Origin: Acetobacteraceae bacterium
GTDB lineage: Bacteria > Pseudomonadota > Alphaproteobacteria > Acetobacterales > Acetobacteraceae
Direction of reading: 5' to 3'
DNA length: 64,000 nucleotides
Assembly: GCA_947474705.1 (NCBI GenBank)
Contig: CANJJS010000008.1
Span: 1-64,000 of the forward strand
The notes below the pieces were generated by a model. It ran no database searches. It was not told the DNA's origin and saw only the letters and a program-made list of their open reading frames with translations. The position numbers were made by a program, and so were the translations under genes. Every line of letters begins with the position of its first letter. The stretch's first letter is position 1. Positions 8,643-19,234 of the stretch are shown in pieces.

Positions 8643-9449
8643 TTATCGCGGCACGTCGCCCGCGATGGTCATGCGGAAATGCAAGCGCTCTTGCTCGCCG
8701 TAATCGTGGACGGCGAAGTGGACCGCGGACCGGTTGTCCCACATCACGACATCGCCGGGTTGCCAGCGGTGGCGGTAGCAGAAGGCGGGCTGGGTGGCGT
8801 GCGCGGCGAACAGCGCGACGATCGCGCGGCTTTCCGATTCGGAGAAGCCTTCGAGCCGGACGGTGGGATCGTAGGACAGATACAGCGCTTTGCGTCCGGT
8901 CTCCGGGTGGGTGCGGACCACGGGGTGATCCGCGGTCTTCACCGCGCTCGACGCATCGCCCATGACTCGTCCCATGCTGGCGGTCCGGTAATACCCGGCC
9001 CGTAATGTTTCGGCGAGCGCGCGCAGGCCCGGCGAAAGTGTCTCATAGGCGAGATATTGATTGGCGAACATTGTGTCGCCGCCGGCGGGTGGGACCGTCT
9101 GTGCCGCCAGGATCGACAGGGCCGGCGGCCGCGGGGAGAAGACGGAATCGGTGTGCCAGTATTCCGTCGTCGTGCCCGCCTTGCCGCGGTTGCGGATGGC
9201 GATCGTGTCGGGGAAGCCGTCCAGCGGCGTGGCGTGGGGGGTGTGGAATGTCTCGCCCCACCGGTGGCCAAATTCCGTCAGATCGGCGGCGTTCAAATGC
9301 TGATCGCGGAACACCAGCATGCAATTGTCGAGAAATGCCTGGCGGATGTCCGCGAAGCGCGTGTCGTCGAGGCCGCGCAGGTCGAGGTCCAGAATTTCCG
9401 CGCCGATTGAGCCCGTGAGGGGCCGCATGGTCATGGTGTTCGCGCGCAT
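8643..9449 (-). CDS. TauD/TfdA-family Fe(II)/2-oxoglutarate dioxygenase
   Basis: The enzyme has 268 residues and a jelly-roll fold. The iron ligands are visible: HxD in EYWHTDSVF and the distal histidine in NRSAVHFAVHDY, followed by the 2-oxoglutarate-binding arginine in LHFRM. Members oxidise taurine, aryloxyalkanoates or similar small acids, and the substrate here cannot be read. The ATG at 9449 is chosen because AGGGAG lies 6 bases upstream; the frame stays open to 9527. It sits 92 bases upstream of the molybdenum hydroxylase on the same strand, so the two may form one catabolic transcript. Confidence 0.88.
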   Translation of the reverse strand: MRANTMTMRPLTGSIGAEILDLDLRGLDDTRFADIRQAFLDNCMLVFRDQHLNAADLTEFGHRWGETFHTPHATPLDGFPDTIAIRNRGKAGTTTEYWHTDSVFSPRPPALSILAAQTVPPAGGDTMFANQYLAYETLSPGLRALAETLRAGYYRTASMGRVMGDASSAVKTADHPVVRTHPETGRKALYLSYDPTVRLEGFSESESRAIVALFAAHATQPAFCYRHRWQPGDVVMWDNRSAVHFAVHDYGEQERLHFRMTIAGDVPR

Positions 9450-9897
9450 GTTCATCTCCCTTTTGCCATGGGGAGGGCCCGGCCGGCCCGTTTCCCCTGC
9501 CCCGCCTGGGGCCGGGGGCGCGATCATGACCGATTGTTCGCGCCGTCACTACCCGGTGCCGCTTTCGCGCCGCCGCCATGTTCAGGCGGGCCGCGGCGAT
9601 TATTACGTGAAAGGATCAATGGCGATGCGCGCGTGGTTGGATATCCCGTGTGTTCTGCTAAAAGCCGCTTCATATGTTTCGGTTCGTAACTGGAAAACGA
9701 GGGTCCGGGCCGGGAGAGTTGCCGGGACTGGACTATATATTCGTATCTTACTTTCGCGAAAATCCATAAAATCGTAAAATAGCGAATTTTCATTGACATT
9801 TGGAGCGGCCGGGCTTGTTTCAGTATTATGCGCATGCTACCTGAAGTCGCCTCCGGTACGAGGCGCGAACGGAAACGGTCAGTAGCGGGGCGGACTT
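9450..9897. other. Gene-free, A+T-richer intergenic region
   Basis: This is the shared upstream region of the minus-strand dioxygenase and the plus-strand isoprenoid-like operon. The segment from about 9600 to 9840 is markedly more A+T-rich than its surroundings. It contains TTGACA at 9794-9799 but no well-spaced -10, the nearest TATTAT being 25 bases further. Short open frames here lack coding character. A regulatory role for the downstream operon is likely but no specific site is recognised. Confidence 0.5.
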
Positions 9898-10491
9898 ATG
9901 AGCGGTACGGGCAATCCCTTCAACGATCCACGGCGTATGGGATCCGATCCCGCGTCTCAGTTGTTTGAAGTCGCGAGCGATTTTTGGACAAGGGGGGTGG
10001 ATGCCTGGCGCTCCGCTCTTGGCGCGGGCGCCATGCCCGGCGGTGGCCGTTCCCCGTTTGGCGCCGCGACGGGTGCGCCGGATGACCACGATCGCACCGG
10101 CGAAGGACTCGCCGCCTGGCAGGCGGCCACGGAGCAGTTCGCGAACCTGGCCCCGGCGATGTCGCGGGCCTGGATGATCGCGGCGGGCAGCACCGGCCGG
10201 TACTGGGGCACCATCGCCGAGGTTCACGCGCGGTATCAAGGGGCGATCGCGCAGGCCGCGGTGGACCGGTCGTCCGGGCAAGCGGCGGCCTCCCCGGCGG
10301 AGTGCCGGTTGCTGGCCGACGAATTGCGGGCCTATCTGCGGGAGATCGGCGATGCCGCGCTGTTGGAGGCGCGGCGCCTGCAGACGGAGTTGGAGGCGGT
10401 TGGCGAGGAAATCGCCCAGGCGACCAATGCCGCGTCTTTGGGCGGGTCCACGCCGGATCCGCGGCCGCGCCGCCATCGGGTGAAGCCATGA
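9898..10491 (+). CDS. Phasin/PhaE-like hypothetical protein
   Basis: The product has 197 residues and no signal peptide or membrane helix. The N-terminal part is low in complexity and rich in Gly/Pro. From about residue 65 it is mostly alpha-helical and rich in Ala, Trp and Gln (AAWQAATEQFANLAPAMSRAW), and the C-terminal third (about 135-175) is amphipathic and heptad-like. This composition is similar to PHA-synthase subunit PhaE or phasins, which coat hydrophobic inclusions, but no diagnostic motif was seen and the link is an inference. It is the first gene of an operon, and its TGA overlaps the ATG of the polyprenyl synthetase (ATGA). A role in binding a hydrophobic product of the downstream enzymes would fit. 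Confidence 0.5.
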   Translation: MSGTGNPFNDPRRMGSDPASQLFEVASDFWTRGVDAWRSALGAGAMPGGGRSPFGAATGAPDDHDRTGEGLAAWQAATEQFANLAPAMSRAWMIAAGSTGRYWGTIAEVHARYQGAIAQAAVDRSSGQAAASPAECRLLADELRAYLREIGDAALLEARRLQTELEAVGEEIAQATNAASLGGSTPDPRPRRHRVKP

Positions 10492-11435
10492 GCGAGACCT
10501 CGCCACACCCCGTGTCGGCCGGGGGCGTCATCGCCGCGCTGGGCTTCACGCGCGAAATGGAGATTTTGCGGGAGCGGATCGGGAACTGGACCGCGAGCCG
10601 CGATCCGGAGATTCGCGCGGAACTGGAGTGGCAGTTTCTGTCCGGCTCCAAATATTTCCGGCCTTTGACTCTCTTCGCCTGTTATCGCGCCATGACCCCT
10701 GGGCCGATCCCAGAACATATCATGACATCCGCCTTGGTCGTCGAAATGTTCCACAATATGACGCTGATCGTGGACGATATCCTCGACCGTTCCGACGAGC
10801 GGCGCGGGCGCGCGACGTTGCACACGAAGTTTGGCGAACTGAACGCGTTGATGGTGTCTGGATACATCGTGGCCGATGGGTATGAGCAACTCGGCGGCGA
10901 TATCCAGGCGATCGGTCTGATGTCGGAACTGGTGAAACGTCTCGGGGTCGCGGAATGCATGCAATGGCGGCTGCGGCGTAGAAAACTGGGAGTCGAGGAC
11001 TGGCGCAAGATCGCCGGCGAGGACACCGGGTCGATGTTCGAGGTTTGCGCGTGTCTGGGCGATCGCACCGGGCGGCTGCGTAAATTCGGTGCTTTGTTGG
11101 GGCTGCTGTATCACGGTTGCGACGATGTCGGCGATGTGCGCGGCGCGGTCGCGTTGGGTGGCGGCGGCGAGGAAGATGTCCGCGACGGGATTTTGACATT
11201 GCCCGCGGCGCTGGCGATTCGCGATTCGCGGGTTGGGGATCTGTTCACCAAGGAAAATCCCACCGATGCGGATTTGGCCGCGATCGCCGCGGCCTTCGCG
11301 CGCTGTCTGCCGGAGGCGGAAGCCTATCTCGACGGTGTGGCGGACGAGGCGCGGCGGGAGGCGCGGTTGTTTTGCCCGAACCCCGATCCGTTGTTCGCGA
11401 TCGTCGCCCAGACCCGTAAGTTGAGCGCGGCCTGA
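10488..11435 (+). CDS. Polyprenyl synthetase family protein, variant active site
   Basis: A 315-residue all-helical trans-isoprenyl diphosphate synthase homologue. Visible signatures are GSKYFRP (53-59; equivalent of GGKRLRP), the first aspartate-rich motif DDILDRSDERRG (96-107) and the second DDVGD (212-216). Two lysines that normally contact diphosphate are absent: the KT pair is D179-T180, and GKxTLP is GILTLP (234-239). The protein may therefore condense an unusual substrate, act slowly, or have left chain elongation altogether. It overlaps the upstream gene by 4 bases and is followed 63 bases later by the flavoprotein, so it likely feeds or receives an isoprenoid in the same pathway. Confidence 0.82.
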   Translation: MSETSPHPVSAGGVIAALGFTREMEILRERIGNWTASRDPEIRAELEWQFLSGSKYFRPLTLFACYRAMTPGPIPEHIMTSALVVEMFHNMTLIVDDILDRSDERRGRATLHTKFGELNALMVSGYIVADGYEQLGGDIQAIGLMSELVKRLGVAECMQWRLRRRKLGVEDWRKIAGEDTGSMFEVCACLGDRTGRLRKFGALLGLLYHGCDDVGDVRGAVALGGGGEEDVRDGILTLPAALAIRDSRVGDLFTKENPTDADLAAIAAAFARCLPEAEAYLDGVADEARREARLFCPNPDPLFAIVAQTRKLSAA

Positions 11436-11498
11436 GGTTCGAGGTATTCTGGCGGGCGGCGTATCGGCGTTATGACTCTCTGAAAGGAATTGCGGGCG

Positions 11499-13649
11499 AT
11501 GAACAGCGCTTCGGGTCAGTCCGTGACGATCGTGGGTGCCGGCGCCGCCGGCCTGAGCGCCGCCCTGCGGCTGGTCGCGCGGGGTTACAAAGTCACTGTT
11601 TACGAAGCCACGGGCAGGGCCGGCGGGAACGCCGGCGTCACACCGGTGTCCTATGGCGACAAGACGGTCAATTTCGAAGTTTTCCCGCATATGTACGGGT
11701 TTTGGTACGATAATTTCTTCGACATCGCGGAAAACGAACTGGGTCTCCGCCGCGACGTGGATTTCAAGGCGTGCGACCGTATCGGCGTGATCGACCGCCA
11801 CAAGCAGGGACATTTGAAGTTCCTGGAAAATCTGGGTGCGTTGAAGACCGTGTGGCAGAACCTGACCGCCGGGGTTGTGCCGGTCGCCGATACGATTTTG
11901 GCGTTTTACGCGGTGCTCGATCTGTTGACTCACGATTTTTCGCACACCGGCGATCTGATCGACGCGCAGACGGTGAACGGTTTCGTGGTCTCGCGGCCCT
12001 ACGCGACCGAAGGCGTGGCGGGTATTTTCGAGAAAGAGTTGATAGGCATTTGGTCGATCGACAGCTATGTGACCTCGGCGTTCGCTTATCAGTCGTTTCT
12101 GAAATATCAGGGAAAGGACCCGATCCCCGATTATTGGCTGTTGAAAGGCGACGCATACGAGGTCATTTTCAAGCCGTGGGTCGAGAAGCTGAAGCGGCTG
12201 GGTGTCGAGTTTGTCTGGAACACGAAAGTTCTGGGCGTCACCGTCGAGCATGGGCGGGCGGCGCGTATTTGCATCGCGAGCGATCCGGGGCTCGAGGAGA
12301 ATGGGTTGGATGGCGATGGGCGCGGGTACAAGGACCCGCGTATCGTTCCGGTTGAAAATTTAATTGTCGCGGTGCCGCAGACCGGGCTTGGCGATCTGGC
12401 GCTGACATCGGCCGAGGCCGCGCGGGCGCTCGCGATCTCGAACCGCTACGATCACGCGGCGCGGGCGATTTTCGAGGTTGAGGAAATTCTGGCGGAATTC
12501 GAGAAGAAGGCGCGTGCGGCGGAACGGCGGATGGGCGATCGGCCTGGACCGGCGCGTGCCTCGGCCGGGCGTGCCGAACGCGTGGCCGTGTTTCGCGAGC
12601 AGGTGGGCCGTCCCGGTGGGTTGATCCACGATTTGCTTGAAGATGTCGCGGAAGAGTACGCGGAAAAGGCTTCGGCGCCCCGGAACCAGTTCAACACGAT
12701 TGCGGGACAGGTGCCGTCTTTGGCGAGCACGCGGGCCACCCAGCACGCGACGCAGGCGATTTTGTATATTCCGTTCAATAGAAAGCTGCCGGGCATTCCG
12801 GATTATTTCGTGTATTTGAGCGAGTCCGTATATGGCCTGACCTATGTGCGCGTGCCTTACGTGGAAGCCGCGCTGGGTGTGCCCTTGGCGTTGGCCGTGT
12901 GTATCTCTGGGTTTGTCAATATACCGACCGATATGGGCGGGTTTCTGGAAGCCACGGATTCTGGGGGCGGCCAGCCGGGGGACATATTGAACCGGAACGC
13001 GCGGCATGAGATCGCGGCGGCGGTGATGAAGGAACTCCGGAACTATGTCGTGTTCGACGACGGGGATGTTTGTCAGGAAAAGGTTTATCTGAAGTCCAAC
13101 GCGGATCAGAAGCTGTTTTTGAATGTCGTGGGGAGCCACTCGATCGCGCCGCGCATTCAATATCCCGCGATTGAAAATCTGTATTTCGCGGTTGGCACGC
13201 AGGAGAATCCGGTTCAGATCACGACGCTGGAATGTTCGATCATCGGCGGGATCCAGGCGGCACAGGCGGTGTGGACGAAGAATCCGGCGTCGAACGGGAA
13301 CCGGGCCAATCCGATCGAGGCGATCGTTCCGGAGACCTGGGGCCTCGCCACGTTATGGGCGGGGAAAATCCTCCTGACCCCTTGGGCCGCCTATGCGAAG
13401 TGGTGGACGGTGTGCGAGCAGGCCTGGTCGATCCCGCCGGGAACGGACAGTGGAAGCGTGGCGACGGTTTCGGTGCCGGAGCGGGTGCTTTCGCAATCGG
13501 GGCGGTTGTTCGCGGGGGCCGCGGACACGGCGCGGATTGTCGGGCAGACGGCGGTGGAGGCCGTGGGGGCGTCGTTCGGGATCTGGAGTAACATGGCGCG
13601 GGCCTTTCAGGCGGGTCGCGGGCGGCGGGGCGGTGGCCGGTTGCGTTGA
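11499..13649 (+). CDS. FAD-dependent oxidoreductase, carotenoid-desaturase-like
   Basis: The 716-residue flavoprotein opens with a dinucleotide-binding fold, VGAGAAGLSAALRL then an acidic residue in VYEA (about 11-37), followed by the GRAGGNAG loop, as in phytoene and zeta-carotene desaturases and hydroxysqualene dehydroxylases. The C-terminal FAD closure is near NLYFAVGTQENPVQITTLECS. It is longer than typical desaturases (about 500) because of a charged Ala/Arg-rich insertion at about 320-370 and a C-terminal extension of about 110 residues after the FAD closure. The ATG at 11499 follows AAGGAA. Its partner is the upstream polyprenyl synthetase, so an isoprenoid chain is the probable substrate. 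The stop overlaps the TTG start of the next gene. Confidence 0.78.
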   Translation: MNSASGQSVTIVGAGAAGLSAALRLVARGYKVTVYEATGRAGGNAGVTPVSYGDKTVNFEVFPHMYGFWYDNFFDIAENELGLRRDVDFKACDRIGVIDRHKQGHLKFLENLGALKTVWQNLTAGVVPVADTILAFYAVLDLLTHDFSHTGDLIDAQTVNGFVVSRPYATEGVAGIFEKELIGIWSIDSYVTSAFAYQSFLKYQGKDPIPDYWLLKGDAYEVIFKPWVEKLKRLGVEFVWNTKVLGVTVEHGRAARICIASDPGLEENGLDGDGRGYKDPRIVPVENLIVAVPQTGLGDLALTSAEAARALAISNRYDHAARAIFEVEEILAEFEKKARAAERRMGDRPGPARASAGRAERVAVFREQVGRPGGLIHDLLEDVAEEYAEKASAPRNQFNTIAGQVPSLASTRATQHATQAILYIPFNRKLPGIPDYFVYLSESVYGLTYVRVPYVEAALGVPLALAVCISGFVNIPTDMGGFLEATDSGGGQPGDILNRNARHEIAAAVMKELRNYVVFDDGDVCQEKVYLKSNADQKLFLNVVGSHSIAPRIQYPAIENLYFAVGTQENPVQITTLECSIIGGIQAAQAVWTKNPASNGNRANPIEAIVPETWGLATLWAGKILLTPWAAYAKWWTVCEQAWSIPPGTDSGSVATVSVPERVLSQSGRLFAGAADTARIVGQTAVEAVGASFGIWSNMARAFQAGRGRRGGGRLR

Positions 13650-16423
13650 GCGAACCCGTGAAATGCCGGGCGTGCGGTGCCGTCGCGTCGGCGTCCGCGC
13701 GCTTCTGCGACCAGTGCGGCACCGGGTTGGCCGTGTTAACGGGGCCCGCGGGAGTCCCCGCCCTTAAATTGGAACCGGCCGGAGCCGGAAATGCCGGGTT
13801 GGCCGGCGAACGGAAGCTGCTGACGGCGTTGATCGCCGATATCAAGGACTCGGTGCGCCATGTTGGCGCGATGGACCTCGAACTGGCGCATCGGGTCATC
13901 CATTCGGTGCTGGCGATCATGGTCGACAGCGTCGTCAAGTTCGACGGTTACGTTCTGCAAACCGTTGGCGATGGTATCTACGCGGCGTTTGGGGCGCCCA
14001 AGGCGTATCACGATCACGCGCAGCGGGCGGTCTATGCCGCGATCGAGATGCAGAACCGGCTGCGCGCCCATGCCAGGAATGTGAAGCGGGGCGAGCCGGT
14101 TATCGAGGTCCGCGTGGGCGTCGAAAGCGGCGAGGTGGTGTTGGGCAGCCTGGACAATGGCCGCGAGTCCGTTTTGATAACCGTCGGGCAGACGGTCAAT
14201 CTGGCCGCGCGTTTGCAGAGTGTCGCGCCGCCGGGTGCGGTTTCCATTGGCGAACAGACGAAGCGTCTGGTCGAGGGTTATTTCGCGCTGAAAGAACGTC
14301 CGGCGCGGATTTTGCAGGGCATATCCGAACCGGTCGCGATTTACGAGGTGACCGGGCTGGGGAGATTGCGGCGGCATTCTCAGATTTCCGCGCGGCGCGA
14401 GTTCAGCGCGTTTGTCGGGCGAGCGCGGGAACTGGAGGTGTTACAGGGCGCGTTTGGTCTGGCGGCGGCTGGGTCGGGGCAACTCGTTTCCATCTCGACC
14501 GAACCCGGCGTCGGAAAATCCCGTCTTTTGTCGGAGTTCGCCAAGACTCTGCCGCTCGCGTGTAAGATCGTCGAGGCTTACGCCGTCTCCCATGGGCGAA
14601 AGATTCCCTGGCTGCCGGCCATCGAAATATTGTTTGAGTATTTTGGCGTGTTGGAGGCCGATGGCCCGGATACGCGCCGGCGCAAGATTCGCGAGACATT
14701 GATGGGGTTGGATATCGCGCCCGGCGAAATTCAACCGTACTTGTTTCCGTTGCTGGGTATCCCGGCCGATCCGAACGATCCTTTGGCGCAAATGGATCCT
14801 CGGGTCAGGCGGGACAGGACCGCGGATGCGATCGCGGGCCTGTTGGTGGCCGAGAGCGCGCGGCAGCCGGTTGTGCTGATGTTCGAGGATCTGCATTGGA
14901 TCGACGAGCAGACCGAGGTTTTGCTCCAGCGTCTGGTGGGCGGCATTGGGCGCGCGTGTATCCTGGTGCTGACGACTTATCGTCCGGAGTATGTGCCTTC
15001 CTGGCCCCGCCGGGAGCGTGTCACGCATATCGATCTCGCGCCGCTCAGCATGCGTCACTCGGATGCGATGTTATCCATGTTGTTGGGCGATGGCGGCGAA
15101 CTCGCGGTGTTAAAACAGTTGATCGCGGAGCGGGCCGCGGGCAATCCGTTTTTCGTCGAGGAGATCGTCAACGGGTTGTTCGAAGATGGGACATTGCGCC
15201 GCGAGGGCGATGCCGTGCGATTGACCGCGCCGGTGGACACGTTGCTTGTGCCGATGACGGTTCAGGGGATGCTCGCGGAGCGTATCGATCAGATGGCGCC
15301 ACGGGCGAAGGAGATGTTGGGGCTTCTTTCCGTCGTGGGCCAAGGGTTACCCATCGATGTCGTGCTTGGCGCTTCGCGGTGGAGTGGCGAGGAGACGGAG
15401 CGTGTTCTGGCCGAGCTGAAGGCCGCGGATTTTATTTACGACCGGTCGCCGGTTCAGGCGGGCGCGAACGAATTCGATTATGCTTTCAAGCATGCGATGA
15501 CGCGGGAGGTCGCTTATCGATCCATTTTGGCCGAGCAAAAAAGGGCGTTGCATTCGCGCGTCGGTGGAACGATTGAGTTACTTTACAAGGACCGGCTGGA
15601 CGATCGGATTTCCGCGTTGGCGTATCATTACGCGGCGGCGGACGATCATTTGAAGGCGATCGAGTATTTGGGCAAGGCCGGGCGTCAGGCGATCGCGCGG
15701 TCGGCGCATCGGGAGGCGATCGCGCATATTCGGGACGCGCTTGGGCGGATCGCGTTGTTGCCGGAAGGGACGGTAGGTCCGGCGGAGAGTGCCGGGCTTT
15801 GGTTGACGCTGGGGGTATCGTTACAGGTAACCAATGGCTACGCGTCGGGCGAGGTGGGGCTCGCGTATGAGCGCGCGCGGGAGATGAGTGTGAAAGCCCA
15901 GGACGAACTGGGTTTGGCGGTGGCGCTGAGGGGAGGGTTTCTTTTTAATGCCACGCGGGCGAATTACGGGGGGGCGTTGCGGGAGGCGCGCGATTTGGTT
16001 GGTCTTGGCGGGTCGAACAGCGCGTATATGTTGGAAGGTTATGTGGCGCTGGGCGTGGCGCACAGTTATTTGGGCGAGTTCGACGTTTCGGTGGATTTTT
16101 TCACAAAGGCGCGCGGTCTCGAGGACGATGCGGCGCATCTCGAGCAGTTGCAATATTCGGGTCATACGCGGGTGAACGGACGGTCGTTTCATGCGCTCTG
16201 TCTCGCGAATTTGGGGGGTGTGGATCGGGCGTTGGGGCTGAGCCGGGAGGCGTTGGGGTTGGCGGAGGATCTGGCGCGTCCCATCACCAGCGCGCATACA
16301 TTAGGGTTACATGCGACCATCTTGCATAAGTGGCGGGCTTACGAGGACGCCGAGGTGTATTACGATGAGACGATCGCCTGTGCCTCGCGGAACGGATTTC
16401 CGTATTGGAAGACATTCGCATAG
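13646..16423 (+). CDS. Zinc ribbon-class III cyclase-AAA ATPase-TPR regulator, cut by in-frame TAG
   Basis: This 925-residue reading begins with a zinc ribbon (C7, C10, C21, C24) and a class III nucleotide cyclase homology domain (about 55-235). An ATPase follows, with Walker A EPGVGKS (286-292) and Walker B VVLMFEDLHW, and then helical TPR-like repeats. Metal aspartates D65 and D109 and the transition-state pair N185/R189 are kept. The positions that select the base read Q105 and I178 instead of Lys and Asp, so cyclase activity is doubtful. The start is a TTG overlapping the previous stop (TTGA). Reading ends at TAG 16421-16423, but the same frame continues directly into clear TPR sequence, so the gene is interrupted or read through. 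Confidence 0.85.
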   Translation: MSEPVKCRACGAVASASARFCDQCGTGLAVLTGPAGVPALKLEPAGAGNAGLAGERKLLTALIADIKDSVRHVGAMDLELAHRVIHSVLAIMVDSVVKFDGYVLQTVGDGIYAAFGAPKAYHDHAQRAVYAAIEMQNRLRAHARNVKRGEPVIEVRVGVESGEVVLGSLDNGRESVLITVGQTVNLAARLQSVAPPGAVSIGEQTKRLVEGYFALKERPARILQGISEPVAIYEVTGLGRLRRHSQISARREFSAFVGRARELEVLQGAFGLAAAGSGQLVSISTEPGVGKSRLLSEFAKTLPLACKIVEAYAVSHGRKIPWLPAIEILFEYFGVLEADGPDTRRRKIRETLMGLDIAPGEIQPYLFPLLGIPADPNDPLAQMDPRVRRDRTADAIAGLLVAESARQPVVLMFEDLHWIDEQTEVLLQRLVGGIGRACILVLTTYRPEYVPSWPRRERVTHIDLAPLSMRHSDAMLSMLLGDGGELAVLKQLIAERAAGNPFFVEEIVNGLFEDGTLRREGDAVRLTAPVDTLLVPMTVQGMLAERIDQMAPRAKEMLGLLSVVGQGLPIDVVLGASRWSGEETERVLAELKAADFIYDRSPVQAGANEFDYAFKHAMTREVAYRSILAEQKRALHSRVGGTIELLYKDRLDDRISALAYHYAAADDHLKAIEYLGKAGRQAIARSAHREAIAHIRDALGRIALLPEGTVGPAESAGLWLTLGVSLQVTNGYASGEVGLAYERAREMSVKAQDELGLAVALRGGFLFNATRANYGGALREARDLVGLGGSNSAYMLEGYVALGVAHSYLGEFDVSVDFFTKARGLEDDAAHLEQLQYSGHTRVNGRSFHALCLANLGGVDRALGLSREALGLAEDLARPITSAHTLGLHATILHKWRAYEDAEVYYDETIACASRNGFPYWKTFA

Positions 16424-17005
16424 ATGTTGAAAAGCGCCTCTTTGGCGCGCCAGGGCGACGTCAACGCGCGGCTGGCGGAGTTCGAGCACGGTCTTTCGGG
16501 TCTTCGCGGGACCGGCGCGCGTTTGGGGATGACGTGGTATTTTTCGTTGCACGCCGAATTGTTGGCCCAGACCGGGCAGATTTGGAAGGCGTTGGACGTA
16601 GTCGAGGAGGCTTTGGCGTTCGCGGAGGAGACCGGGGAACGGATGAACCGGGCGAATCTGCTGCGATTGAAGGGGGCGTTGTTGTTCGAGGGGGTCAGAG
16701 CCGGGCGGGACGGCGGGCTCGACGCCGCCGAAGCGTGTCTGGCGGAGGGGTTGCGTGTCGCGATGGGTCAGGGCGCGAAGCTTTTGGCGCTGCGGGCGGC
16801 GATCGGTTGCGCGAGTCTCCATGCGCATCGGCGGCGGTTCGAGGAGGGGCTGGCGGTGTTGCGGCCCGTGTATGAGTCGTTTTCCGAGGGGCTGGCGATG
16901 CCGGACCCGGTCGATGCCCGGCGGCTGATCGCGTATCTTGAGCGTCCGGCGTTGTGCCGGGTGCCGGTCAGCGATGCCGGTGGCGGGGCGTTGTTGGAGA
17001 TTTAA
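16424..17005 (+). CDS. C-terminal TPR part of the cyclase-ATPase regulator, in frame after the amber codon
   Basis: These 193 residues continue the preceding gene in the same frame, separated only by one TAG. The sequence (LKSASLARQGDVNARLAEF, then LGMTWYFSLHAELLAQTGQ) is the typical final TPR block of AAA-type cyclase regulators, ending with the long ALAFAEETGER helix. An ATG immediately follows the TAG, so the fragment could in principle be made separately. No ribosome-binding site sits at the usual distance. The likeliest explanations are a recent CAG-to-TAG-type mutation, a sequencing error or amber suppression. Confidence 0.6.
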   Translation: MLKSASLARQGDVNARLAEFEHGLSGLRGTGARLGMTWYFSLHAELLAQTGQIWKALDVVEEALAFAEETGERMNRANLLRLKGALLFEGVRAGRDGGLDAAEACLAEGLRVAMGQGAKLLALRAAIGCASLHAHRRRFEEGLAVLRPVYESFSEGLAMPDPVDARRLIAYLERPALCRVPVSDAGGGALLEI

Positions 17006-17103
17006 GGCCCGCTGCCCGGCCGCTTGACCATCCCGGCCACGCGTGACACCCACCGGGCATCGCGCCGCCTACGGCGGCCACGTTCATCCAGGGGCGACCT
17101 GAC

Positions 17104-18141
17104 ATGTCGAAGAAACTGCTGCTTACGCTCGCGGGTGAGGCCGTTTGGCCACCGCCGATGTGGCTGATGCGCCAGGCCGGCCGGTATTTGCCGGAGTATC
17201 GCGCGGTTCGCGCCACGGTGCCGGACTTTATCGCCCTTTGTACCACCCCCGCTTTGGCTGCCGAGGTCACATTGCAGCCGATCCGCCGTTATGGTTTCGA
17301 TGCCGCCATTCTTTTTTCCGATATTCTTATTCTGCCTTGGGCGCTCGGACAGGGTTTGGAGTTCAGGGAAGGCGAGGGGCCGGTGCTGCCGCCGATCCGG
17401 GACGAGGCCGGGTTTCGCGCGCTGACCATGGCGAACCTGGCGGAGAGGACCGCCCCCGTGATGGAAACCGTCCGGCTGGTCCGCGCGGGGCTGCGGGCCG
17501 GGAATTTTCCGGATACGGCTCTGATTGGGTTCGCCGGGGCGCCGTTCACCGTCGCGTGTTATATGGTCGAGGGCGCGGGCTCCCGCGATTTCGCCGCGAC
17601 CCGGACCATGGCTTATCGAAACCCGTCCCTTTTCGATGCGATCGTGGAGCTGGTCACGGAAGGCACCATCGAATATTTGCGGGCGCAGGCGGAGGCGGGC
17701 GCGGAAACGCTCATGCTGTTCGATTCATGGGCGGGGGTTTTGTCTCCGGCGCATTTCCGCCGCTATTCGATCGAGCCGGCGAAGCGGATCGTTTCGGCGT
17801 TGCGCGAGGATTATCCGTACCTGCCGATCATCGGATTTCCGCGAATGGCGGGACTTTCGCTCGCCGCCTATGCCGCCGAAACCGGCGTGAACGCGGTGGG
17901 GATCGACACCGGCATGGACCCGGCTCTGGCCGCGCCGCTGCTGCCGAAGGGGGTTGCCGCGCAAGGCAATCTCGATCCTTTGGCGTTGGTGGCGGGCGGG
18001 GAGGCGATGGCAAGCGGCGCGCGCGCGGTTTTGTCCGCGATGAAGGGGCGTCCCTTCATCTTCAATCTGGGACACGGGATCGTCCCGCAAACGCCGCCCG
18101 AGCATGTCGCGGCCTTGGTTGAGCTGGTCCGTGGGTCCTGA
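17104..18141 (+). CDS. hemE: Uroporphyrinogen decarboxylase
   Basis: HemE (345 residues) removes four carboxyl groups from uroporphyrinogen III to give coproporphyrinogen III in the cytoplasm. The family signatures are present: PPMWLMRQAGRYLPEYR near the N-terminus, with the substrate-binding arginines and glutamine, FSDILILPWALG with the essential aspartate, and GFAGAPFTVACYM. The length is normal and the start MSKKLLLTLAGE fits the family. It overlaps the downstream hemH by 11 bases if that gene uses the GTG at 18131, so these two haem steps are coupled. The 98-base gap from the preceding operon suggests its own promoter, none clearly seen. Confidence 0.97.
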   Translation: MSKKLLLTLAGEAVWPPPMWLMRQAGRYLPEYRAVRATVPDFIALCTTPALAAEVTLQPIRRYGFDAAILFSDILILPWALGQGLEFREGEGPVLPPIRDEAGFRALTMANLAERTAPVMETVRLVRAGLRAGNFPDTALIGFAGAPFTVACYMVEGAGSRDFAATRTMAYRNPSLFDAIVELVTEGTIEYLRAQAEAGAETLMLFDSWAGVLSPAHFRRYSIEPAKRIVSALREDYPYLPIIGFPRMAGLSLAAYAAETGVNAVGIDTGMDPALAAPLLPKGVAAQGNLDPLALVAGGEAMASGARAVLSAMKGRPFIFNLGHGIVPQTPPEHVAALVELVRGS

Positions 18142-19234
18142 CGCGACCGGGTGCGGCGCGGACGTGCCCCCCCGGCACCGCCCTAAGGTCGCGATCGTGC
18201 TGTTCAACCTCGGGGGACCTGACGGGCCCGAGGCGATCGAGCCGTTTTTGCTGAACCTGTTTCGGGACCCGGCGATTCTGCGGGTGCCGTTTTTCGTGCG
18301 TCCGTTTTTGGCCCGGATCATCGCGCGTGCCCGTTTGAAGCCCGCGACCGAAAATTATCGTTTGCTTGGCGGGAAATCTCCGCTTTTGGAAATGACCGAG
18401 GCGCAGGGCCGCGCGCTTGAAGCCGCTTTGCCGGAGCTGGAGGCGAAATGTTTTTCGGCGATGCGGTACTGGCACCCGTTCAGTCTGGAAACCGCGCGCG
18501 CGGTGAAAGCCTGGCAGCCGGACGACATTGTTCTTCTGCCGCTTTATCCGCAGTATTCCACCACGACGACCGGTAGCTCCCTCACCGCCTGGCGAGACGC
18601 GGCGGCGCGCGTGGGATTGTTCAAACCCGTTTCGACCTTGTGCTGCTATCCCACCGATGCCGGTTTCGCCGCCGCGACCGCGCGTATTGTCCGGGACGGG
18701 TACGACACGGCGCGTGCCGGTCTGGATCCGGCCGTGCCGCTGCGGGTGTTGTTTTCCGCGCATGGCCTGCCGGAGTCGATCGTGAAGCGGGGCGATCCCT
18801 ACCAGTATCAGATCGAACAGACCGTCGCCGCGGTGCTGACCGCATGGGGGCGAGACGATCTGGACTGGACCATCTGCTACCAATCGCGGGCCACGCCGCA
18901 AAAATGGATCGGGCCCAGCACCGACGAGGAAATTCTTCGGGGTGGCGCGGAGAAAACGGCGCTGCTGGTGGTCCCGATCGCGTTCGTCTCGGAACACTCG
19001 GAAACGCTGGTGGAACTGGATATCGAATATCGCGATCTGGCGGAAAAGCACGGTGTTCCCGGCTATTTCCGGGTGCCGACCCAGCAATGCGACGCCGGGT
19101 TCGTCGGGGCGCTGGCGGCTTTGGTCCGCTCGGTCCGGGCGGCCGGCATCGGGCTCCATGCCGCCTGCGACCGGGAGGCCTGCGCGGCGGCCAACCGCCG
19201 GTGTCCCTTCGCGATTGCGTCCCCCTTGCCATAA
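18131..19234 (+). CDS. hemH: Ferrochelatase
   Basis: HemH (367 residues with this start) inserts Fe(II) into protoporphyrin IX, the last step of protohaem synthesis. NLGGPDGP near the N-terminus, YRLLGGKSPL, LPLYPQYSTTTTGS, the catalytic histidine in LFSAHGLPES and the EHSETLVELD segment are all visible. A GTG inside the end of hemE is the most probable start. The frame extends to 18104, and a start nearer KVAIVLFNLGG is also possible. The C-terminus ends in a cysteine-containing tail (HAACDREACAAANRRC) with four residues capable of metal binding. Some bacterial ferrochelatases carry a 2Fe-2S cluster there, so this is worth noting but unproven. Confidence 0.95.
   Translation: MGPDATGCGADVPPRHRPKVAIVLFNLGGPDGPEAIEPFLLNLFRDPAILRVPFFVRPFLARIIARARLKPATENYRLLGGKSPLLEMTEAQGRALEAALPELEAKCFSAMRYWHPFSLETARAVKAWQPDDIVLLPLYPQYSTTTTGSSLTAWRDAAARVGLFKPVSTLCCYPTDAGFAAATARIVRDGYDTARAGLDPAVPLRVLFSAHGLPESIVKRGDPYQYQIEQTVAAVLTAWGRDDLDWTICYQSRATPQKWIGPSTDEEILRGGAEKTALLVVPIAFVSEHSETLVELDIEYRDLAEKHGVPGYFRVPTQQCDAGFVGALAALVRSVRAAGIGLHAACDREACAAANRRCPFAIASPLP

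Follow-up and report, generated by a model that had tools for sequence, protein, structure and literature searches.

A subfamily of trans-prenyl synthases with three conserved substitutions and its recurrent, seemingly undescribed gene set in an Acetobacteraceae genome

What does a prenyl-synthase-family protein do when it keeps both of its Asp-rich motifs and has exchanged three residues that are presumably needed to hold its substrate? The question is raised by four consecutive genes, here called g1 to g4, of an Acetobacteraceae bacterium (GenBank assembly GCA_947474705.1), which lie in the first 64,000 nucleotides of contig CANJJS010000008.1; this whole stretch is referred to as the window. 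An earlier note on the same DNA had described a four-gene operon encoding a phasin-like protein, a variant polyprenyl synthetase, a desaturase-like flavoprotein, and a cyclase-ATPase regulator. Our best reading, to which we assign a probability of about one half, is a sporadic and probably horizontally moved gene set that would make or modify an isoprenoid lipid, with the non-canonical prenyl synthase g2 and a dedicated helical partner, g1, at its core.

The g2 protein matches the Pfam family polyprenyl_synt (PF00348) at 102.6 bits against a cut-off of 27, in agreement with its earlier description as a variant synthetase; the substituted residues had not been seen by the earlier reader. When 84,980 species genomes were scanned with an alignment of six g2 proteins, 34 loci at 49–75% identity were obtained, or 35 with the window. 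The scan relied on the exact peptide patterns GVAE..QW and LGVEDWR., which favour close relatives, and neither pattern covers the substituted positions. All 35 loci are included in the g2 alignment, in which the fragmentary locus L072 has no letters at some sites, giving counts out of 34 rows there. Asp replaces the Lys of the KT motif, His replaces the Gln ahead of the second Asp-rich motif, and Gly replaces the Lys of the GK motif in 35/35 rows (Table 1). We take these three positions to be the residues gripping the allylic diphosphate in farnesyl diphosphate (FPP) synthase. The DDxxD motifs, assumed to bind Mg, are intact in every row that has letters there, and so are the K..R and RR residues (34/34), which are presumably those expected to hold the second, isopentenyl diphosphate (IPP)-type, diphosphate. 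The other two PF00348 proteins of the same genome carry K, Q, and K at the three positions. The best solved matches, a nonaprenyl synthase (9imq) and a solanesyl synthase (9k9b), resemble g2 in family, in both DDxxD motifs, and in K..R and RR but, as aligned, differ from it at all three. By its sequence, g2 is a distinct subfamily of the trans-prenyl synthases. Its substitution signature is solid and forms the strongest part of the case for the gene set.

Because the metal motifs and the IPP-type site are kept while the allylic grip is swapped, g2 is expected to have activity, though of a kind other than ordinary chain elongation; its allylic partner would be an unusual one, or it would join prenyl units in an irregular way. 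Biosynthesis of an isoprenoid by unusual chemistry appears to be the likeliest account of a synthase with intact metal motifs that is accompanied by a desaturase-like and sometimes a GGR-like flavoprotein. It is also conceivable, though unlikely, that g2 is a dead or regulatory homologue which senses or carries prenyl diphosphates, the gene set then serving signalling or storage. Such a role would suit the loss of the three diphosphate-gripping residues, as we take them to be, in all 35 loci and the presence of a full-length cyclase in 20 of them. Typical inactive prenyl-synthase subunits, however, lose DDxxD, and g2 keeps both of these motifs together with K..R and RR. In addition, the proteins that accompany it are a desaturase-like flavoprotein and, in eight loci, a GGR-like one. 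In five relatives g2 is 70–75% identical to the window protein, whereas g3 is only 25–28% identical in the same five, and this much better conservation argues for g2 as a constrained working protein.

The neighbours of g2 have been compared by clustering the open reading frames (ORFs) of the 34 loci and the window and by using a profile of the g1 family. The g1 family is found near g2 in 32 of the 35 loci, g3 in 25 (L072 being a fragment), and a full-length cyclase in 20; a script had counted 21 cyclases, one of which (L066) is an ORF of 88 amino acids (aa). Homologues of these genes are therefore not normally found apart, and the g1-family partner nearby sets g2 apart from the known trans-prenyl synthases as the three exchanges do. 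The g1 profile behind this count was built from 23 of the 32 loci. The remaining nine were found outside the seed, among them a weak match in L056 (E 8.8e-4) and L058, a near copy of a seed locus. Five further entries (L034–L038) are the same loci as L039, L043, L058, L048, and L044, in five genomes, and have been counted once. By script, g1 immediately precedes g2 on one strand in 23 loci; the two genes also seem adjacent in L039 and L046, where the called g2 ORF is over-extended. A search for g3 at the level of the order gave matches in 293 of 299 genomes. Judged by best E-value and the places listed, matches that extend through the main body of g3 are confined to five genomes besides the window's, all with E of at most 3.4e-14; the next match in rank (6.9e-8) covers residues 5–50. 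All five have g1 and g2 in tandem, and the identities obtained there are 71–75% for g2 and about 24–30% for g3.

The hosts of g2 loci include Alphaproteobacteria, Burkholderiales, Acidobacteriota, Solirubrobacter, and the chromosome of a Marinimicrobia metagenome-assembled genome (MAG), with Acidiphilium rubrum, Jannaschia aquimarina, Allosediminivita pacifica, and Bradyrhizobium among the named strains. The locus counts are counts of sequences and not of independent events, as the four Bradyrhizobium loci, like the two Acidiphilium loci, are mutually close. A conserved gene order, for which the earlier note had proposed a search, was not found, since g3 is divergent from g1–g2 in most loci that have it, unlike in the window. 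This variation in order and strand is what would be expected of a loose neighbourhood of unrelated genes on a genomic island, the least probable of the explanations considered here, but the same families occur together at g2 identities of 49–75%, whereas the majority of other neighbour families recur in few loci. The recurrence of the gene set beyond chance is solid in the sequences compared, and a random mixture does not describe it. No description of the set has been found in the open PMC full-text literature, as judged by title and the start of the abstract, a scope outside which preprints and most subscription journals lie; the set is seemingly undescribed.

The partner protein g1 has no match in Pfam or NCBIfam, and a profile of its family finds no PDB chain up to E 1. 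Its earlier description as phasin-like amounts to a resemblance: like the phasins (Phasin_2), g1 is small and without an enzyme domain, and it is probably rich in helices. At E 0.1, the phasin families of NCBIfam and Pfam match not one of 16 g1-family members, and comparison by hhalign with 25 phasin sequences (Phasin_2) from relatives gives a probability of 0.1%, so a relationship to phasins has been rejected at the level of profiles. By contrast with the phasin result, hhalign connects g1 with F11/F29, small proteins encoded in the Acidobacteriota-type loci (91.8%, or 93.6% for the C-terminal part alone). Both share a basic tail, which mostly ends in R..VK or R.AK plus one residue. The F11/F29 match and the shared tail indicate that g1 forms a separate family which accompanies g2 even where g3 is replaced. 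As far as its sequence tells, g1 is a new family unknown to Pfam and NCBIfam. With its conserved basic tail, g1 may dock on g2 or scaffold it at a membrane or granule.

The g3 protein has Pfam matches to flavin adenine dinucleotide (FAD)-binding and amine-oxidase families, mainly at its N-terminus, and its assignment as a desaturase-like flavoprotein is borne out by its predicted fold. The AlphaFold2 model, built from 24 sequences, has a predicted local distance difference test score (pLDDT) of 78.9 and a predicted template modelling score (pTM) of 0.79. Its best PDB match is the rice phytoene desaturase 5mog (Foldseek E 6.5e-18; by VIA, Z 34.0 and a root-mean-square deviation of 2.6 over 442 aligned residues), with the next entry at Z 26.7. 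Compared with this plant-type enzyme, g3 is 18% identical, and its model adds a helical insert and a helical C-terminus. The insert consists of long helices at about residues 305–391, a stretch in which the window protein has extra residues relative to its five relatives, and the C-terminal tail is of low confidence. Amine oxidases occur in the lower ranks of the fold search; the rows shown do not include HpnE, an absence that carries no weight. The model suggests a desaturase-like protein, a shared fold not establishing the reaction. In the proposed pathway, g3 would oxidize the hydrophobic product of g2.

A best fold match to phytoene desaturase, together with weak NCBIfam matches of g3 to HpnE (45.7 bits against 283.05) and to carotene desaturases (34.9 against 622.15 for the best such model shown), brings to mind an ordinary carotenoid or hopanoid side cluster, in which a divergent geranylgeranyl diphosphate (GGPP)-type synthase would act with a CrtP- or HpnE-type flavoenzyme. 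An exact match to such a cluster was looked for, and none of the carotenoid or HpnE models among the 25 shown for g3 is at or near its cut-off. The only match to squalene/phytoene synthase (PF00494) in the genome is on contig C12, while the window is on C8, whose lack of a phytoene synthase is a further difference from the setting of 5mog. At the three substituted positions g2 also departs both from the other synthases of the genome and from the two solved ones, and we regard this explanation as improbable.

In NCBIfam, g2 is matched best by NF041169, a model for the encapsulin cargo polyprenyl transferase, and polyprenyl transferase genes are reported to occur with family 2 encapsulins, as are shells with cyclic-nucleotide-binding domains (PMC8346489). 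A compartment system of that kind is nonetheless very improbable here. The g2 score of 80.3 bits lies far below the NF041169 cut-off of 450, and no shell family is present among the conserved neighbours scanned. The SrpI-like shell family (PF19307) matches none of 19 genomes (18 of the 34 hosts and that of the window), a result in which the controls also gave no match.

The putative regulator g4 has a Guanylate_cyc (PF00211) and an AAA_16 (PF13191) domain above cut-off; zinc-ribbon and TPR matches are below cut-off. Its best NCBIfam match, the TOMM kinase/cyclase fusion model TIGR03903, scores 278.4 bits, with a cut-off of 705.75, and the end of this model (TOMM_kin_cyc) is matched by a separate ORF that follows g4. 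Both pieces align to neighbouring parts (residues 23–937 and 940–1110) of a single 1120-aa ORF in L041, which shows that the regulator of the window is split. The split may reflect a mutation, a sequencing error, or a regulator that works as two pieces. The earlier four-gene operon thus stands as far as the domains and the conservation of the set are concerned, but its regulator is not one ORF, an in-frame TAG having been missed. The Asp positions taken as the metal sites of class III cyclases are kept in 21 of 22 regulator rows, the exception being one of two L053 copies, which has no cyclase part. A Walker-A-like GKS/GKT is present in all 22. An intact g4 might control the gene set through a cyclic nucleotide.

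Several other families accompany g2. In 12 of the 35 loci (L044:4603-5796 and 11 others, not the window operon) a family with a predicted decarboxylase fold lies beside g3, and one member scanned has no Pfam match. The model of one member (pLDDT 74.6, pTM 0.63) has the acetoacetate decarboxylase fold (3c8w, 3bgt; MppR) behind an N-terminal helical hairpin, an extra feature relative to those enzymes (Foldseek E 1.3e-8; VIA Z 18.6, unrelated rows at most 9.0). Acetoacetate decarboxylases presumably use Schiff-base chemistry via a Lys. In 12 family sequences no Lys is invariant or nearly so, and the usual Schiff-base chemistry is therefore not expected. A GGR-like flavoprotein family occurs in eight loci; the one member scanned matches FAD_binding_3 best and GGR_cat at 28.4 bits (cut-off 27). 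A family of Crp-type cyclic-nucleotide regulators is within the fetched stretch in four loci, L044 (14424-15266), L046, L047, and L063, the L044 member being the one scanned for domains.

A second type of g2 locus is seen in six Acidobacteriota and Marinimicrobia genomes (L059, L064, L066, L067, L068, and L070), in which small proteins take the place of g3. A row of the families F08, F10, F07, and F09 (F10 not called in L066) lies ahead of g2, a GGR-like flavoprotein follows g2 in five of the six, and a g1-family protein is present as well. No Pfam match was obtained for the one set of these small proteins scanned, that of L070. Another small family, F13/F16 (hhalign 93.2%; L071:8851-9219, L058:9159-9485), lies between g3 and g1 in the four Bradyrhizobium loci, L042, L048, and L058. 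Among the small helical pieces, hhalign is convincing only for g1 with F11/F29 and for F13 with F16. A helical module common to the N-terminus of the decarboxylase-fold family, the g3 tail, and g1 was considered and finds no hhalign support.

The distribution of the gene set is patchy. Within the genus, g1 is present in one of 33 genomes, that of the window itself. In a sample of 398 genomes from the phylum the search for g1 gave the window's own genome and one marginal match (E 9.8e-4, counted irrespective of its neighbours), with at most eight candidates scored per genome, which makes absence weak evidence. In a g2 tree from which L072 was left out, seven group labels require 7 changes, with a minimum of 6, and Pseudomonadota alone require 5, of which 2 are forced by well-supported branches. 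The sporadic presence in the genus is a better hint of transfer than the tree, and the gene set has probably been moved horizontally. Among plasmids, 73 records have a g2 match, each with a best place below 60% identity (24.5–29.7% for the ten listed), and no g3 match was found; six viral contigs match the g3 patterns, with no relative among them.

A number of observations weigh against the reading of g2 as the active core of a transferred isoprenoid pathway. The g2 protein could be a catalytically dead binder. A fourth change in it, of the last Lys to Ile (34/34), is not diagnostic, as the solved nonaprenyl and solanesyl synthases are also without that Lys. L060, L062, and L063 yielded no g1. 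Nor was g3 found in 10 of the 35 loci, namely L040, L041, and L069 (one short flank), L063 (long flanks), and the six Acidobacteriota/Marinimicrobia-type loci with other partners; where it is present, the window g3 is only 21–35% identical to its relatives. In the window the regulator is interrupted and has Gln where, as we assume, class III cyclases often carry the purine-site Lys, and cyclic-nucleotide control may be lost here. With only one label change above the minimum, the g2 tree alone does not prove transfer between phyla. Many of the contigs are from metagenome bins, and their assignment may be in error; those labelled Aphanocapsa (L041), Cyanobacteria MAG (L049), and Klebsiella (L072) are possibly misbinned.

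The activity, the product, and the roles of all four proteins are what we infer from these comparisons. A wider form of the isoprenoid-lipid reading, which is tentative and itself unlikely, would make the set a new class of isoprenoid chemistry. The DDxxD metal sites of g2 would act on a partner without the normal allylic grip, and helical proteins tagged by their tails would join the enzyme in a complex or granule associated with lipid. The finishing modules, which would be exchangeable, would be proteins of the desaturase-like, reductase-like, and decarboxylase-fold kinds, and the whole would spread horizontally between phyla under cyclic-nucleotide control.

The layout of the operon in the window is given in Table 1. 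The overlaps of 4 bases between g1 and g2 and between g3 and g4, and the gap of 63 bases between g2 and g3 (11436-11498), agree with the earlier description, and this spacing suggests that g1–g4 may be transcribed as one unit. A search of 9400-17300 gave no sigma-70-like promoter, and the terminator-like sites there (8, against a shuffled mean of 9.6) are uninformative. The GC content of the operon is 62.9% and that of the window 65.2%, a difference that is not decisive. Downstream of the regulator, at 17104 and 18104, are genes which we take to be hemE-like and hemH-like and to lie outside the gene set. This pair (17104-19234 in the window) is kept in seven congeners (L108–L114) with upstream genes that differ from those of the window, making it a variable site. 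The search covered eight congeners, and in the seven from which stretches with the pair were fetched, the upstream part obtained has no gene in common with that side of the window. No empty insertion site could be defined from the congener stretches upstream of hemE.

Table 1. Features of the g1–g4 locus, with positions counted from the first nucleotide of the window
Feature	Position	Strand	Description
g1	9898..10491	+	197 aa; small protein, family without Pfam/NCBIfam match
g1 basic C-terminal tail RRHRVKP	10468..10488	+	R191 invariant, K196 nearly invariant in 16 rows
g2	10488..11435	+	trans-prenyl-synthase family, distinct subfamily by sequence; PF00348 102.6 bits
g2 first Asp-rich motif DDILD	10773..10787	+	D at 1, 2, 5 in 34/34 rows with letters
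g2 Asp codon replacing Lys of KT motif	11022..11024	+	D in 35/35
g2 His codon replacing Gln, three residues before second Asp-rich motif	11112..11114	+	H in 35/35
g2 second Asp-rich motif DDVGD	11121..11135	+	D at 1, 2, 5 in 35/35
g2 Gly codon replacing Lys of GK motif	11160..11162	+	G in 35/35
g3	11499..13649	+	FAD-dependent oxidoreductase, phytoene-desaturase-like predicted fold
g4	13646..16423	+	TTG start; class III cyclase domain, AAA_16 ATPase, and start of C-terminal part
In-frame TAG splitting regulator	16421..16423	+	seen in the sequence; L041 ORF continuous across this point
Regulator C-terminal piece	16424..17005	+	193 aa; ATG start is the codon right after TAG

Quinones, carotenoids, and many natural products owe their backbones to prenyl synthases, whose diphosphate-binding residues are, to our knowledge, treated as near-universal. 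A subfamily in which three of these residues are replaced in every member seen while both metal motifs are kept would either show undescribed chemistry or mark a misannotated family. As the hosts include named strains, the product can be looked for directly.

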